A DNA stretch of 16,431 nucleotides, taken from NCBI GenBank assembly GCA_946481095.1, contig CAMLML010000093.1, positions 1 to 16,431 of the forward strand. The letters run 5' to 3'. The position numbers were made by a program, and so were the translations under genes. This document shows positions 2,241 to 16,430 of the stretch, one piece after another; the stretch's first letter is position 1, and every line of letters starts with the position of its first letter. Source of the DNA: an uncultured Cellvibrio sp. (GTDB lineage Bacteria; Pseudomonadota; Gammaproteobacteria; Pseudomonadales; Cellvibrionaceae). Under the pieces are notes generated by a model, which did not search any database, was not told where the DNA came from, and saw only the letters and a program-made list of their open reading frames with translations.

Positions 2241-2269
2241 TGGTTATTGCGATAGTCGCCCTTTATAAT
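2241..2269 (+). promoter_or_regulatory. Candidate sigma-70 promoter of the nqr operon
   Basis: A perfect -10 box TATAAT lies at 2264-2269. The hexamer 17 bp upstream (TGGTTA, 2241-2246) matches the -35 consensus poorly, so the promoter may need an activator. The expected transcript start is near 2276, which gives a leader of about 260 nt before nqrA. Confidence 0.5.
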
Positions 2270-2275
2270 CCCGCC

Positions 2276-2535
2276 GTTTTGTAGGGGCTATGCAAAAAAT
2301 CCCGTTAAATCAAATGCTTGAGTATTAAATGCTCAAGAGGGTGTTTTTTGGGCTCAGATTTAGGGCGGTGAGTTAGCACGCCAGTGATAACTCACAGTCC
2401 GACCACCGGATCAATGTTGTGAACGCTGTTTATTCCCGCCAGGATGTAATAAACAGTCGATGCCATGTTGACGAGGTGTTTTCGCGATCTGGATTATCCA
2501 GATTAATATCCACTCGAATGACCAGGCAGAGACGT
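2276..2535 (+). promoter_or_regulatory. Long structured 5' leader of nqrA with four evenly spaced hairpins
   Basis: No plausible gene fills this stretch. It contains four inverted repeats. H1 is 2317-2325/2329-2337 (9 bp, one G-U, triloop TAA). H2 is 2368-2375/2388-2395 (8 bp, then a G-A mismatch, 3 more bp and a GCCA tetraloop). H3 is 2426-2434/2448-2456 (9 bp, 13-nt loop). H4 is 2487-2493/2497-2503 (7 bp, triloop TTA). The gaps H1-H2, H2-H3 and H3-H4 are each 30 nt, and H4 ends 32 nt before the nqrA ATG. This suggests a structured regulatory RNA. A short ORF (2290-2328, MQKIPLNQMLEY) overlaps H1. Whether it is a riboswitch, an attenuator or a set of protein sites cannot be told from one sequence. 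Confidence 0.5.
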
Positions 2536-3873
2536 ATGATTAAGATTCGTCGAGGATTGGATCTACCTATTACCGGTAGTCCCGTTCAGTCCATAGAGGA
2601 GGGGCCTCAAATTCGTCAGGTTGCACTGATAGGGTTTGATTACCATGGCATGAAGCCAACTATGGCCGTCAAAGTTGGCGACAAAGTAAAAGTTGGACAG
2701 GAAGTTTTCTCCGATAAAAAAATCCCCGGTGTCATTTACACCGCTCCCGCATCCGGCACAGTGAGTGCTATCAACCGTGGTGATCAACGTGTGTTTCATT
2801 CGTTGGTGATTGATGTTGAAGGTGATGATGCTGTTGAATTTACCCGTTACAACCCGAGCGATTTAGTCGGTTTGTCAGCAGAAGTGGTTCAACAACAATT
2901 GCTTCAATCCGGTTTGTGGACTGCGTTTCGCACGCGTCCTTTCAGTAAAGCACCGGTTCCAGGTTCAAAACCCAGTTCTATTTTTGTCCAGGCTATGGAT
3001 ACCAATCCATTGGCCGCTGATCCAAAAGTGATTATCGACACTAACAAAGAAGCCTTTGCCAACGGTTTGACTTTATTGTCTCGTCTGGCTGACAAAGTGT
3101 TTGTTTGTCATGCGCAAGGTGTTGATTTACCAAAAGGTCAGGGCAATCAAACGCATCAGGCTTTTGGTGGTGTGCATCCAGCGGGTAACCCGGGTACGCA
3201 CATCCATTTCCTCGATCCAGTGTCTGCCAGAAAAACGGTGTGGACTGTGGGTTATCAGGATGTGATGGCAATCGGTGAGTTGTTTACCACCGGGCGTTTG
3301 AATGTGAATCGTGTGGTTGCATTGGCAGGCCCACAAGTTGATCGTCCACGTTTGATCAAAACCCGTCTGGGTGCAAATCTGGATCAACTGACTCAAGGCC
3401 AGGGCAAAGCAGGTGAAAACCGTGTAATTTCCGGTTCAGTCTTTGGCGGTCGTCGTTCACATGGCAATTTGACTTTCCTCGGTCGTTTCCATACGCAAGT
3501 TAGCTTATTGCTTGAAGGTCGCGAGCGTGAAATGCTGCATTACCTACGCGTGGGTACCAATAAATTTTCGGTGCTCGGGCTTTATATTTCGAAATTATTC
3601 GGCGGCAAAAAATTTGCATTCACTACTTCAACCAATGGTAGTGAGCGTGCAATGGTGCCTGTCGGTTCTTACGAAAAAGTCATGCCTTTGGATATTTTGC
3701 CAACGCAATTACTGCGTTCATTGATTGTGGGCGATACCGAAACGGCACAACAATTGGGGTGTCTGGAATTGGATGAAGAGGATTTGGCATTGTGTACTTT
3801 TGTATGCCCTGGCAAATACGAATACGGCCCAATTCTGCGTAATAACCTGTCGCGCATTGAGAATGAGGGCTAA
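2536..3873 (+). CDS. nqrA: Na+-translocating NADH:quinone reductase subunit A
   Basis: NqrA is the cytoplasmic, cofactor-free subunit of the Na+-pumping NADH:ubiquinone reductase. The protein has 445 residues, almost exactly the length of Vibrio NqrA. I chose ATG 2536 because [14 protein letters not shown] is the standard NqrA start. The frame stays open upstream to 2419, but that 39-residue extension is unlike the family and crosses hairpins H3 and H4. The ribosome site is modest (AGAG, 2528-2531). Visible features are the lipoyl/barrel-sandwich-like segment [14 protein letters not shown]...APASGTV (about 44-80) and the conserved C-terminal [12 protein letters not shown]. It is the first gene of nqrABCDEF; nqrB begins 2 nt after its stop. 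Expression probably depends on the promoter and long structured leader upstream. Confidence 0.97.
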
Positions 3874-3875
3874 TC

Positions 3876-5075
3876 ATGCTGAGAAATTTACTCGACAAGA
3901 TGGAGCCGCATTTCCATAAAGGCGGCAAATATGAAAATTGGTATGCGCTTTACGAAGCAATCGATACCGTTTTCTACAAACCGGCTGATGTCACCAAATC
4001 AACAGCCCATGTGCGTGATGGTGTAGACCTCAAGCGCATCATGATCACTGTGTGGTTGTGTGCATTCCCGGCGATGTTCTTTGGTATGTACAACGTAGGT
4101 TTTCAAGCCAACACTATATTGGCAGATACCGGTGCAACCGGCATTGATAACTGGCACGGTGTGTTGACCAGCTGGTTTGCTGGCCATAACCCCCAAAGTA
4201 TCTGGGATAACCTGGTGTTGGGTGCAGCTTACTTCCTGCCAATTTATGCCACAGTCTTTATTGTGGGCGGATTTTGGGAAGTCTTGTTTGCCATGAAACG
4301 CGGCCATGAGGTTAACGAAGGTTTCTTTGTAACGTCTATTCTCTTCGCGTTAACTTGTCCACCCGATATTCCTTTGTGGCAAGCTGCATTGGGTATCAGT
4401 TTTGGTGTGGTTGTCGGCAAAGAAGTTTTTGGTGGTACTGGCAAAAACTTCCTCAACCCGGCATTGGTTGGCCGCGCATTTTTGTTCTTTGCTTACCCTG
4501 CCGAAATGTCAGGTGATGCAGTCTGGACGGCAGTAGACGGTTACTCAGGTGCAACGGCGCTTTCGATTGCAGCACAAAGCGGGATGCAAGATGTAGTCAA
4601 TCAATTAACCTGGTGGGATGCCTTCTATGGTTTTGAGCAAGGTTCAATAGGTGAAACGTCAACACTCGCGATTATGGCTGGTGGGCTTGTATTGTTAGCG
4701 ATGGGCATAGCCTCAACCCGAATCGTATTGGGTACTTTATTGGGCACGGTTGTGACGGTGTTGATTTACAACTGGGCCGGTGAAGACAGTAAGAATCCTA
4801 TGTTCCAAATGCCTTTCTGGTGGCATTTTGTGTTGGGTGGATATGCTTTTGGTTTGTTCTTTATGGCGACCGATCCGGTATCAGCTTCTATGACCAATAC
4901 CGGTAAATGGGTTTTTGGTGCGTTGATCGGATTCATGGTGATTACCATTCGGGTAGTGAACCCTGCATATCCGGAGGGCATGATGTTGGCCATTTTGTTT
5001 GCCAATATGTTTGCCCCCACCATCGACTACTTCGTCGTTCAATCCAACATTAAACGGAGACTGGCTCGTGGCTAA
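3876..5075 (+). CDS. nqrB: Na+-translocating NADH:quinone reductase subunit B
   Basis: NqrB is the large integral membrane subunit that forms much of the Na+ path and the ubiquinone site. It carries an FMN attached to threonine by a phosphoester bond. The 399-residue protein has a cytoplasmic N-terminus followed by many hydrophobic helices (family about 10). The flavinylation motif DGYSGAT puts the modified residue at Thr227. Other conserved stretches are [24 protein letters not shown] and [18 protein letters not shown] 3876 lies 2 nt after nqrA, with AGGG just upstream inside the end of nqrA. The last 8 nt overlap the start of nqrC, suggesting translational coupling. FMN attachment needs ApbE, whose gene is not in this window. 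Confidence 0.97.
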
Positions 5076-5844
5076 TCAAACAGCAAAATACACCATCACC
5101 GTCACATTGATTATGTGTTTGGTGGCGTCGATTTTGGTGGCTGGTTCTGCAGTAATGTTGAAACCACATCAAATCGCTAACAAAGCACTGGATTTCAAAA
5201 AGAACGTATTGAAAGTGGCTGGTATTTATGACGAAAGCCAATCTGTCGATGCACAGTTTGAAAAAATCCAGGTGAAAATAGTTGATTTACAAACCGGAAA
5301 ATTTTCCGATGCTATCGCAGATATTGAGCGTTTCGATCAAACCGCATCTTCCAAAAAACCGGAATTGTCTATAAAGCTGAATCCTGAAGAAGACATTGCC
5401 AAGTTAATTACTCGCGAAAAATACGCAAAAGTATTTTTGGTGAATGATGACGCAGGTAATTTGAGCAAAGTGATTCTGCCTGTTCGCGGAAAAGGTTTAT
5501 GGTCAACCATGTCAGGATTTATTTCACTGGATAAAGACTTGAACACCGTATTGGGTTTTGGTTTTTATGCACATGGTGAAACGCCGGGCCTGGGTGGTGA
5601 AGTGGATAATCCAAAATGGAAAACAGTTTGGATTGGCAAGAAAATTTATTCTGCATCAGGTGATGTAAAAGTCGGTGTGATCAAAGGTCATGTTGATGAT
5701 GCAACGCCCGAAAAAGAATACAAGGTTGATGGTTTGTCCGGTGCGACCCTGACCAGTAATGGCGTGAGCAATCTCGTTAAATACTGGATGGGTGATACAG
5801 GTTTTAAACCTTTCCTCACTAACTTGAAAAATGGAGAAGCGTAA
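5068..5844 (+). CDS. nqrC: Na+-translocating NADH:quinone reductase subunit C
   Basis: NqrC has one N-terminal transmembrane helix and a periplasmic FMN-binding domain whose FMN is covalently bound to threonine. The product has 258 residues, matching the family. I chose GTG 5068: it gives [14 protein letters not shown] directly before the membrane helix (about residues 8-30), and GGAG at 5056-5059 lies 8 nt upstream. The longer in-frame start at 4999 would lie within nqrB and has no support. The flavinylation motif is [13 protein letters not shown], with Thr227 as the acceptor; [10 protein letters not shown] is also typical. The gene overlaps nqrB by 8 nt and nqrD follows 2 nt after the stop. 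Confidence 0.96.
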
Positions 5845-5846
5845 TT

Positions 5847-6515
5847 ATGAGCGCTAAAACTAGAGATCTCCTGACGAAACCCATATTTGAAAATAACCCG
5901 GTTATTTTACAAATTTTGGGAATCTGTTCCGCGCTTGCAGTAACCTCAAGTGTAAAAGTCAGTTTGGTTATGGCAATTGGTTTAACACTGGTTTCTGCAT
6001 TTTCAAACTTTTTTGTTTCGTTGGTTCGTAATTTTTTGCCCAGCAGTGTGCGCATTATTGCGCAGATGATTATCATTTCTGCATTGGTAATTGTGGTTGA
6101 TCAAATATTGAAAGCGGTTGCTTACGATGTGAGTAAACAACTTTCAGTGTTTGTCGGTTTGATTATTACCAACTGTATCGTAATGGGTCGAACCGAAGCC
6201 TTCGCATTGAAAAATCCACCGGTTCCCAGTTTCCTTGATGGTTTTGGTCATGGTTTGGGTTACTCGGCGTTGCTGATTGTGATTGCAACTTTCCGTGAAA
6301 TTTTTGGGGCAGGCAAATGGTTTGGTATTCAGGTATTGCCAGTGGCCACTGATGGTGGTTGGTATATTCCTAATGGGCTTCTGTTGTTACCACCCAGTGC
6401 ATTTTTCATCATCGGTATGATTATCTGGGCTTTGCGCAGCTGGAAAAAGAATCAGGTCGAGAAAGCAGATTTCAAAATTGCACCTAACTCAATCAAGACG
6501 CAGGAGATCGCATAA
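5847..6515 (+). CDS. nqrD: Na+-translocating NADH:quinone reductase subunit D
   Basis: NqrD is an integral membrane subunit with six predicted helices. It pairs with NqrE as an inverted-topology pseudo-dimer (NqrDE/RnfAE family). The protein has 222 residues, slightly longer than the Vibrio protein because of a charged C-terminal tail. Cys27 ([12 protein letters not shown]) and Cys110 ([14 protein letters not shown]) are conserved positions; with two Cys of NqrE they hold the intramembrane Fe-S centre reported in structures of the enzyme. The ribosome site GGAG lies within the end of nqrC. The stop codon overlaps the nqrE start by one base (TAATG), so translation of the two is probably coupled. 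Confidence 0.97.
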
Positions 6516-7123
6516 TGGAACATCTATTAAGTTTATTTGTTAAAGCGGTCTTCATTGAAAACATGGCTCTGGCGTTCTTTTTGGGTATGTGTTCATTTTT
6601 GGCAATGTCCAAAAAAATCAAAGCTGCAATTGGCTTGGGTATCGCAGTAATCGTTGTACAAGCGGTGACAGTGCCAGCTAACAATTTGATCCTGACTTAT
6701 TTATTGAAAGAAGATGCACTTGCCTGGGCAGGTATCACCGGTGTTGATTTAAGCTTTTTAAGTTTTATTTCATTTATCGGTGTAATTGCTGCAATCGTAC
6801 AAATCATGGAAATGGTAATGGATAAATACATGCCTGCGTTGTACAACGCCTTGGGTGTATTCCTGCCATTGATTACTGTGAACTGTGTGATCATGGGTGG
6901 TTCTTTGTTTATGCAAGAACGTGATTACAATTTTTCTGAAAGTGTTGTCTATGGTGTTGGCTCCGGTGCTGGTTGGGCGCTGGCAATTGTTGTATTGGCG
7001 GCAGTGAAAGAAAAATTGAAATACTCTGACGTACCTGAAGGTCTTCGTGGCTTGGGTATTACCTTTATCACCGTGGGATTGATGTCATTGGGCTTCATGT
7101 CCTTTGGCGGTATTTCCCTCTAA
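6515..7123 (+). CDS. nqrE: Na+-translocating NADH:quinone reductase subunit E
   Basis: NqrE is the second six-helix membrane subunit of the NqrDE pair. The protein has 202 residues, as expected. Cys26 ([13 protein letters not shown]) and Cys124 ([13 protein letters not shown]) match the conserved ligands of the Fe-S centre shared with NqrD; this site passes electrons across the membrane between NqrF and NqrC. The start overlaps the nqrD stop by one base, and GGAG at 6503-6506 is the ribosome site. nqrF follows after 22 nt. Confidence 0.97.
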
Positions 7124-7145
7124 GCGAGACGAGGAATAAAAGCGA

Positions 7146-8369
7146 ATGAATACCGAAATTTTATTAGGCGTCGGCATGTTCACCTTCATCGTGTTAGCTT
7201 TGGTGGTGATTATTCTGATGGCACAAGCCAAGCTGGTTAGTAGTGGTGATGTGCAAATATTAATTAACGACGAAAAAACCATTACTGTTCCTGCTGGTGG
7301 GAAGTTATTGCAAACATTGGCAGCCAATAATGTGTTTTTGGCATCGGCTTGTGGTGGCGGTGGTAGTTGTGCGCAATGTAAATGTGTGGTGAATGATGGT
7401 GGTGGATCAATTTTGCCAACAGAAGAGGCACACTTTAATCGTCGCGAAGCGAATGAAGGCTGGCGTTTGAGCTGCCAGGTTCCGGTAAAACAAAACATGA
7501 AGATTCATGTACCGGAAGAAGTTTTTGGTGTGAAGCAATGGGTAACCACAGTTGAATCCAATCCAAACGTAGCCACTTTTATCAAAGAGTTGACTTTGCG
7601 TTTGCCTGAAGGCGAGAGCGTGGATTTCCGTGCAGGTGGTTATGTGCAATTGGAATCACCACCTTACCATGTCAAATTCAAAGATTTTGATATTGGTGAA
7701 GAATATCGCGGTGACTGGGAACGTTTTGGTTTCTTTAATTTGGAATCCAAAGTCGATGAAACTGTGATTCGCGCTTATTCAATGGCGAATTATCCTGATG
7801 AAAAAGGCGTAGTGAAATTCAATATTCGTATTGCAACTCCACCGCCCAAATCACAAGGTATCCCACCAGGAAAAATGTCGTCTTACGTATTCAGTTTGAA
7901 ACCGGGCGATAAGATTACTGTGTACGGTCCATTCGGTGAGTTCTTTGCCAAGAAAACCAATGCAGAAATGGTATTTGTTGGTGGCGGTGCGGGTATGGCG
8001 CCTATGCGTTCGCACATATTCGATCAATTACGCCGCTTGAAAACGGATCGTAAAATTACTTTCTGGTACGGTGCGCGTTCGTTGCGCGAATTGTTCTACA
8101 AAGAAGATTACGACATGTTGCAAGCTGAAAATCCAAACTTCAAATGGCATGTGGCTTTATCCGATCCACAGCCTGAAGATAATTGGAATGGTCTGACAGG
8201 TTTTATTCATAACGTACTCTATGAAAATTACCTGAAAGATCATCCGGCTCCGGAAGATTGTGAGTTTTACATGTGCGGCCCACCAATGATGAACGCCGCC
8301 GTAATTAAAATGTTGAAAAGTCTGGGTGTTGAAGACGACAACATTTTGCTCGACGACTTTGGTGGTTAA
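7146..8369 (+). CDS. nqrF: Na+-translocating NADH:quinone reductase subunit F (NADH dehydrogenase subunit)
   Basis: NqrF is the electron entry point: it oxidises NADH at FAD and passes electrons through a [2Fe-2S] cluster. The protein has 407 residues, the standard length. An N-terminal membrane anchor (about 6-26) precedes a ferredoxin-type domain with cluster ligands Cys69, Cys75, Cys78 and Cys110. A ferredoxin-reductase domain follows with the FAD motif RAYS (209-212), the NAD segment [13 protein letters not shown], and the near-terminal [16 protein letters not shown] at 7131-7134 is the likely ribosome site. A terminator begins 3 nt after the stop, so the six structural genes form one unit ending here. 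Confidence 0.97.
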
Positions 8370-8646: not shown

Positions 8647-8898
8647 ATGGCAACTTTACTAGTCACTTTAGCCGTAATGCTATTCGTCGCTTTTGCACTA
8701 TCGATCAGTGTTATCGCAGGCCGTAAACCTATCACCGGTTCTTGTGGTGGTGTTGGTAAAGCACTGGGCGAACCGGATTATGTTTGTCAGCTGTGCGGTG
8801 GCGATGAAGCGAAATGTGCAGAATTAAAAGAAAACTCATCTGTAGAAAAAAATGCAGACGATTTATCTTACGACGCGAGTAAAAAAGATCAGGCATAA
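8647..8898 (+). CDS. nqrM: Na+-NQR maturation protein NqrM (DUF539)
   Basis: NqrM is a small membrane-anchored protein needed to assemble active Na+-NQR, thought to help deliver iron for the NqrD/NqrE site. The protein has 83 residues. One N-terminal transmembrane helix (about 2-24) is followed by the diagnostic Cys pattern: Cys33 in GSCGGVGKALG, then Cys47, Cys50 and Cys57 in CQLCGGDEAKC. An acidic, lysine-containing tail follows. The ribosome site AGAGG (8631-8635) sits just after the palindromic repeat. The nqrF terminator and this repeat separate it from the operon, so it probably has its own promoter or depends on readthrough. In Vibrio, apbE lies between nqrF and nqrM; it is absent here. 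Confidence 0.95.
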   Translation: MATLLVTLAVMLFVAFALSISVIAGRKPITGSCGGVGKALGEPDYVCQLCGGDEAKCAELKENSSVEKNADDLSYDASKKDQA

Positions 8899-16353: not shown

Positions 16354-16430
16354 TGGTGCCCCGGAGACGATTTGAACGTCCGACCTGCCGCTTAGGAGGC
16401 GGCTGCTCTATCCAACTGAGCTACCGGAGC
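16354..16430 (-). tRNA. tRNA-Arg (anticodon CCU)
   Basis: Read on the minus strand, 77 nt fold into a complete cloverleaf. The 7-bp acceptor stem is GCTCCGG with CCGGGGC (one G-U). The D stem is GCTC/GAGC. The anticodon stem GCCGC/GCGGC has loop CTCCTAA, giving CCU, which reads AGG. The 5-bp T stem has loop TTCAAAT. The discriminator A and the CCA end are encoded. The gene ends one base inside the window edge, so its promoter is outside. Confidence 0.96.

Follow-up and report, generated by a model that had tools for sequence, protein, structure and literature searches.

According to PMC11109978, the nqrA-II motif (SRC-35-1) consists of four stem-loops located immediately upstream of nqrA, was described from five genera of the Pasteurellaceae with reported covariation, and is suggested by its authors to respond to Na+ or another ligand related to the cation gradient. 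The same source presents the nqrA (nqrA-Marinomonas) motif as a rare RNA upstream of nqrA in one gammaproteobacterial genus and states that Na+ riboswitches control genes of Na+ transport (PMC11109978).

In this study, we analyzed the region upstream of nqrA in a 16,431-nt stretch of DNA, referred to as the window, whose NqrA is closest to Cellvibrio (83% identity to the named Cellvibrio loci L001 and L002). The best explanation overall, to which we assign a probability of about 0.6, is that the 260 nt between a TATAAT box and nqrA form the 5′-untranslated leader of the nqr operon and act in cis as a conserved structured RNA.

The leader and its four hairpins in the window

The features considered here are all located on the forward (+) strand:

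2264..2269, +, TATAAT, the −10 box of the presumed nqr promoter, read from the sequence and common to Cellvibrio-type and family leaders
2276..2316, +, 5′ conserved box (GGGGCTA, then AAATCAA), presumed start of the leader RNA, from model matches
2317..2337, +, hairpin 1, enclosed in the MFE structure by a stem of 2293-2303 with 2339-2350, from folding
2368..2395, +, hairpin 2 with a GCCA apical loop, from folding
2426..2456, +, hairpin 3 (P3), stem 2426-2434 / 2448-2456, loop 2435-2447 CCCGCCAGGATGT, from covariation
2467..2472, +, GTTGAC, candidate pseudoknot partner (GYUGRY) of the P3 loop, from pairing counts
2486..2504, +, hairpin 4 (P4), starting 50 nt 5′ of the ATG, paired in all 70 cells
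2519..2535, +, initiation box TGACCAGGCAGAGACGT with the non-canonical Shine-Dalgarno word AGGC, from leader counts
2536..3873, +, nqrA, first gene of the nqr operon (PF05896, PF24836, PF11973; 83% identity to L001 and L002)

From the ORF list, we take the genes at 3876-8369 to be nqrB to nqrF. Between nqrF and a pyridine nucleotide-disulphide oxidoreductase gene lies an 83-codon frame with a cysteine motif (8647-8898), presumably nqrM. On the other side, positions 694-2097 encode a 467-aa protein with long poly-serine stretches and without a Pfam match, which adjoins the end of a CBM2 cellulose-binding protein (3-515).

The initial annotation had placed four hairpins between TATAAT (2264-2269) and the ATG of nqrA, and all of them are present at these positions with the loops as described. 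Hairpin 1 (2317-2337) reads CTTGAGTAT-TAA-ATGCTCAAG and contains one G-U pair, hairpin 2 (2368-2395) reads GTGAGTTA-(GCAC GCCA GTGA)-TAACTCAC, hairpin 3 (2426-2456) reads CTGTTTATT-(13-nt loop)-AATAAACAG, and the core of hairpin 4 (2487-2503) reads ATCTGGA-TTA-TCCAGAT. Hairpins 2 and 3 of the window (2368-2456) share an apical CGCCAG, i.e., a GCCA loop closed by C-G, which is absent by eye from hairpin 2 of the relatives. The gaps between the hairpins are exactly 30, 30, and 30 nt as claimed, with 32 nt from the last hairpin to the ATG (2536). This spacing is not kept in evolution: the gap between hairpins 3 and 4, the only one measured in relatives, ranges from 28 to 46 nt over ten Cellvibrio-type leaders when stems are extended as far as pairing goes. 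Because of this variation the 30-nt rhythm looks like chance, and we dropped it as a feature.

With a strict definition (stem of at least 7 pairs, loop of 3-14 nt), which excludes hairpin 1 with its G-U pair, the leader contains three non-overlapping perfect Watson-Crick hairpins. This count was reached in 1 of 2000 dinucleotide shuffles and also in 2 of 125 stretches of 260 nt taken with overlap across the whole window, among which the leader itself may be. Folding of the 260-nt leader gave an MFE of −77.7 kcal/mol (z = −2.29; as low in 2 of 200 shuffles), and the z-scores of nine relatives range from −0.35 to −2.27, so that the predicted stability of the whole leader appears to exceed that of shuffled sequences modestly.

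Conservation of hairpins 3 and 4

For comparison, genome contigs were scanned for NqrA and the best 80 loci were kept. nqrA was found in 134 of the 144 genomes of the family and in 13 of the 21 genomes in the genus group to which the genome of L001 belongs. The other 8 of these 21 genomes (the genus group of G001) gave no nqrA match, so that the Na+ pump either is patchy in the group or escapes detection because genomes are incomplete. The core set of ten leaders comprised the window and nine genomes (L001, L002, and L086-L092; NqrA identity 81-85%); because these leaders are closely related, their double changes are not all independent. After removal of duplicates, a broader set of 155 leaders was available, of which one was dropped for length, leaving 154 (97 from the family and 57 from outside; family grouping was by locus number and may include a few outsiders). 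The window was omitted on purpose from alignment A2 and is also missing from alignment A5, while neither L088 nor the window could be aligned in the 5′ domain and both were left out of alignment A4, which covers it.

In the region of hairpin 3, the ten leaders align without gaps. Seven of the nine stem pairs show double changes, 90% of the 90 cells are paired, and the covariation score was reached by none of 500 shuffles and lies far above that of slid versions. The outer four pairs are open in some leaders, resulting in a contiguous stem of 5-10 pairs, and partition-function folding of the ten leaders gave a probability of 0.56-0.67 for the closing pair. Two invariant U-A pairs close the loop, CCCGCCAGGA[A/U]GU, in which 12 of 13 positions are invariant. 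The search for the exact 15-nt loop word covered 17 genomes of the genus group: 9 of the 13 with nqrA and all 8 without it. The word occurs once per genome, 87-106 nt 5′ of nqrA, in all nine nqrA-positive genomes searched and in none of the eight nqrA-negative ones. When one mismatch was allowed, there were 8 further matches elsewhere, compared to 6 for a reversed control pattern. In the remaining four nqrA-positive genomes (L093-L096; NqrA identity 63-69%), the loop word is absent from the 330 nt inspected. With its near-invariant loop, the hairpin 3 element is a small and directly testable target.

Hairpin 4 is conserved in pairing and in position. All 70 cells of its seven pairs are standard in the ten leaders, two pairs carry a double change (one in the window, one in L088), and partition-function folding predicts the hairpin with a probability of 0.66-1.0. 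It starts 49-52 nt 5′ of the ATG in all ten leaders, while its distance to P3 varies from 28 to 46 nt. Downstream of it, the initiation box with AGGC is nearly invariant in the ten leaders. Among the 154 nqrA leaders, AGGC lies within 32 nt of the start in 131 and TTAGGC in 100, and one of the words GGAG, GAGG, or AGGA within 20 nt of the start in 8. A conserved non-canonical box, often (GUGR)UUAGGC, precedes nqrA in this lineage, in Pseudomonas, and in Thauera and its kin; by eye, a box of the AGGC type is clear in one (L181) of 20 more distant gammaproteobacterial leaders.

A covariance model covering hairpin 3 to the ATG and built from the nine relatives only finds the window with 68.3 bits (E 3.2e-14), a score to which the conserved start box contributes. 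Applied to 94 other loci from a set of 174, the model gave 13 matches at E ≤1, the best of which (L093, 24.1 bits; L122, 22.8 bits) mainly aligned the start box. In the 144 family genomes, ten were found at E ≤0.1, namely the nine own sources of the model and G009, the genome of L093 (E 0.046), and in 390 genomes drawn from the order, G001 alone was found at E ≤0.01. Both genome searches began with a more strictly filtered step and scored only its best candidates, so that weak matches may have been lost. As judged from these searches, the motif is found only in the Cellvibrio group, a single clade. Based on the covariation, the leader very probably represents a real conserved structured RNA.

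In the 87 family leaders from outside the Cellvibrio type, structure is strongest from −80 to −31 (mean z −1.02; 31% below −1.5). Windows from −90 to −11 have mean z values of −0.72 to −1.02 versus −0.04 to −0.58 farther upstream, and the start-codon region is without structure. Because structure peaks there also in these leaders, hairpins located just 5′ of the start box may be more widespread, and what is special to Cellvibrio may be the hairpin 3 element. The enrichment at the place of hairpin 4 in other genera, with unrelated sequence, would also be expected if the hairpins were generic elements for mRNA stability or ribosome standby without sensing, with selection acting only on a hairpin before the start box, and the sequence variation of hairpins 1 and 2 even inside Cellvibrio fits such elements as well. 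We nevertheless regard generic hairpins as rather unlikely, since they leave unexplained why a 13-nt loop with 12 invariant positions sits on a freely covarying stem and why the exact loop word occurs only before nqrA across 17 genomes.

Another reading concerns the partner of the P3 loop and overlaps with the leader RNA preferred here, which leaves this partner open: hairpin 3 could be a site for a protein of the CsrA/RsmA type controlling translation or stability. CsrA/RsmA binds GGA in a hairpin loop, with a core of ANGGA and a second GGA at the Shine-Dalgarno box. GGA is present in the hairpin 3 loop of all ten leaders, the loop of the window, CAGGAUGU, is close to this consensus, and the more distant relative L093 retains a hairpin with a CAGGA loop. 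However, the conserved CCCGCC half of the loop would be dispensable for CsrA, the A two positions before GGA in ANGGA is a C in hairpin 3 (C-A-GGA), and the initiation box contains no GGA. Also, GGA is not enriched in loops of the 87 other family leaders (14 of 87, compared to a mean of 24.4 over all trinucleotides), and a family-wide GGA-loop code was rejected on this count. We therefore give a CsrA/RsmA-type site a low probability.

The 5′ domain and the start of transcription

When the leader of each relative is folded, hairpins 1 and 2 have counterparts at the same place. At the place of hairpin 1, relatives carry a longer hairpin whose 5′ strand is conserved in sequence. In eight leaders, 77.9% of the cells of the hairpin 1 domain are paired, compared to up to 55.3% in slid versions, and its covariation score of 0.180 exceeds that of slid versions (up to 0.151) and was reached by 5 of 500 shuffles. 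Three pairs show double changes, a number not above that of some slid versions, and the automatic consensus fold of the 5′ block resulted in weak pairs with an energy of −1.48 kcal/mol. From these values, pairing of the hairpin 1 domain in the relatives is likely. A structured model (R2) and a sequence-only model (R3), each built from eight other leaders, both find the window, R2 at 2276-2381 (28.1 bits, E 7.8e-6) and R3 at 2276-2345 (18.9 bits, E 6.7e-5). The R2 match contains many non-standard pairs and does not coincide with the real hairpin 1, and L088 obtains a higher bit score from R3 than from R2 (32.4 versus 25.7 bits); the homology of hairpin 1 is thus a matter of place and 5′ sequence. 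At the place of hairpin 2, every leader carries a hairpin, with a sequence that differs between leaders, and the consensus fold of this block contained zero pairs because the alignment is too divergent.

Compensatory changes beyond shuffled and slid controls are accordingly found for P3 and P4 and not clearly for the hairpin 1 domain. The alignment of nqrA leaders, proposed as a check for the Cellvibrionaceae and made here with Cellvibrio-type leaders, revealed compensatory changes in hairpins 3 and 4 and weak or none in hairpins 1 and 2, so that we count two of the four hairpins as shown by evolution. For the structured leader as initially annotated, this means that the proposal holds for hairpins 3 and 4, by covariation and by the model match, and does not extend to the regular spacing or, with any strength, to hairpins 1 and 2.

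For the transcription of the leader, the position of TATAAT is informative. It is located 272-336 nt 5′ of the ATG in all ten Cellvibrio-type leaders, and 89 of the 97 family leaders have TATAAT within 450 nt 5′ of nqrA (shuffle mean 11.8), the nearest one at 182-427 nt in 84 of these 89. Because TATAAT is that far upstream in both sets, a long transcribed leader before nqrA is plausible. A scan of 1800-2700 for promoters did not list TATAAT at 2264 because no fitting −35 precedes it.

Transcription attenuation, by hairpin 1 with a U-run or by a leader peptide (ATG 2290, MQKIPLNQMLEY), is very improbable: hairpin 1 was flagged as terminator-like and AGGGG precedes the short frame at ATG 2290, but no run of at least five T follows the place of hairpin 1 in the nine relatives (by eye), and six of the ten leaders (L086, L087, L088, L089, L091, and L092) lack an ATG frame of at least 7 codons with a purine-rich box. 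We accordingly rejected both a conserved terminator function of hairpin 1 and the leader peptide, whose short frame with ribosome site is not conserved. Hardly any weight remains for an internal promoter (TTGACG at 2468, 18 nt, GATTAT at 2497) driving nqrA and leaving the hairpins untranscribed with it, since its 9 of 12 consensus match, although the sole one from the scan, equals what chance provides (one match expected; shuffle mean 1.2), L087 is the one relative of the nine with TTGAC in this stretch and none has the exact GATTAT (by eye), and TATAAT lies upstream of all hairpins in ten of ten leaders.

Possible mode of action and comparison with known RNAs

For the conserved leader RNA, we propose the following mode of action. 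The 260-nt stretch from TATAAT to nqrA would be transcribed as the 5′-untranslated leader of the nqr operon. A small ligand, a small RNA, or a protein would be recognized by the hairpin 3 loop, and the output would be formed by hairpin 4 together with the weak Shine-Dalgarno box, the input altering the efficiency with which ribosomes start on nqrA. Because two hairpins are clearly preserved in the Cellvibrio relatives, the leader is probably a switch-like control element for the sodium pump, and regulation of nqr by the leader RNA in cis appears reasonably likely. As a switch, the 5′ arm of hairpin 4 might alternate among three partners, namely the 3′ arm of the same hairpin, the loop of hairpin 3, and the initiation box, with the start blocked in the last case.

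The pairing counts for such exchanges are high. In the nine relatives, the hairpin 3 loop pairs with the 5′ arm of hairpin 4 in 44 of 45 cells and, equally, with the downstream GYUGRY motif in 44 of 45. In the window, GTTGAC placed by eye provides four of five pairs, and three of five in the alignment as it stands. Permutation of the columns 3′ of the loop (500 trials) gave at least one equally good loop partner in 11% and at least two in 2.6%. The initiation box pairs with the 5′ arm of hairpin 4 in 58 of 60 cells, with no double change and an uninformative shuffle control. A complement of the start box at the same place was present in 29 of the 87 other family leaders, identical to the reversed control (29 of 87), and as a family-wide feature it was rejected for this lack of enrichment. 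In folding, all three letters of the start-box AGG are at least half unpaired in just 3 of the 10 leaders, i.e., the box is open in some and paired in others, and the idea of a start box open by default was dropped. Because permuted columns also yield partners, the start-box complement is unenriched, and folding gives no default state, we treat this particular circuit as speculative; the absence of an open start box as the usual default made us lower an already small estimate slightly.

It is possible, at a similarly low level of confidence, that the leader represents a new riboswitch class for Na+, a flavin, or the quinone redox state, which would switch the Na+ pump on or off through the arm exchange of hairpin 4. 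It would then be the third structured RNA upstream of nqrA, without relation to either published motif. If so, nqr operons of three separate gammaproteobacterial groups would carry distinct structured leaders, which would suggest repeated RNA control of the pump and provide a set for seeking a common signal.

Rfam 15 gave no match within 2276-2535 of the window, neither at gathering scores nor at E ≤10. At E ≤10, 18 matches were obtained over 2100-2700, none of them touching the leader, and at gathering scores the whole window contains one match, a tRNA at 16357-16430. In the 20 distant gammaproteobacterial nqrA leaders, two tRNAs were matched and no cis-regulatory family. For nqrA-Marinomonas, there was no match in the window or in 20 related loci, with a library lacking a positive control for this family. 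The identity with nqrA-Marinomonas that the initial annotation had considered thus finds no link in the leader, as Rfam 15 has no match in 2276-2535 (presence of the family in the library being unconfirmed). Among the papers listed in literature searches, no title or abstract opening contained an earlier report of this Cellvibrio nqrA leader RNA.

Na+ riboswitches form the class named Na+-I. The leader resembles them in its association with a gene of Na+ transport and differs in having no Rfam match, the presence of the class in the library being unconfirmed. With CsrA/RsmA sites it shares a GGA in a leader hairpin loop, and it differs from them by conservation far past the GGA and by a start box without GGA. 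Like nqrA-Marinomonas, it sits upstream of nqrA in a narrow lineage. With nqrA-II, it has in common that a candidate cis-regulatory RNA with four hairpins lies upstream of nqrA (PMC11109978). Covariation is found here in two of the four hairpins and is weak or none in the others, and the host is different, nqrA-II being reported from Pasteurellaceae, whereas the NqrA of the window is closest to Cellvibrio (83%); this comparison with nqrA-II covers gene context, number of hairpins, and host lineage. The leader is best classified, among the candidate cis-regulatory RNAs associated with nqrA, as a new one that is like in kind to nqrA and nqrA-II and a member of neither.
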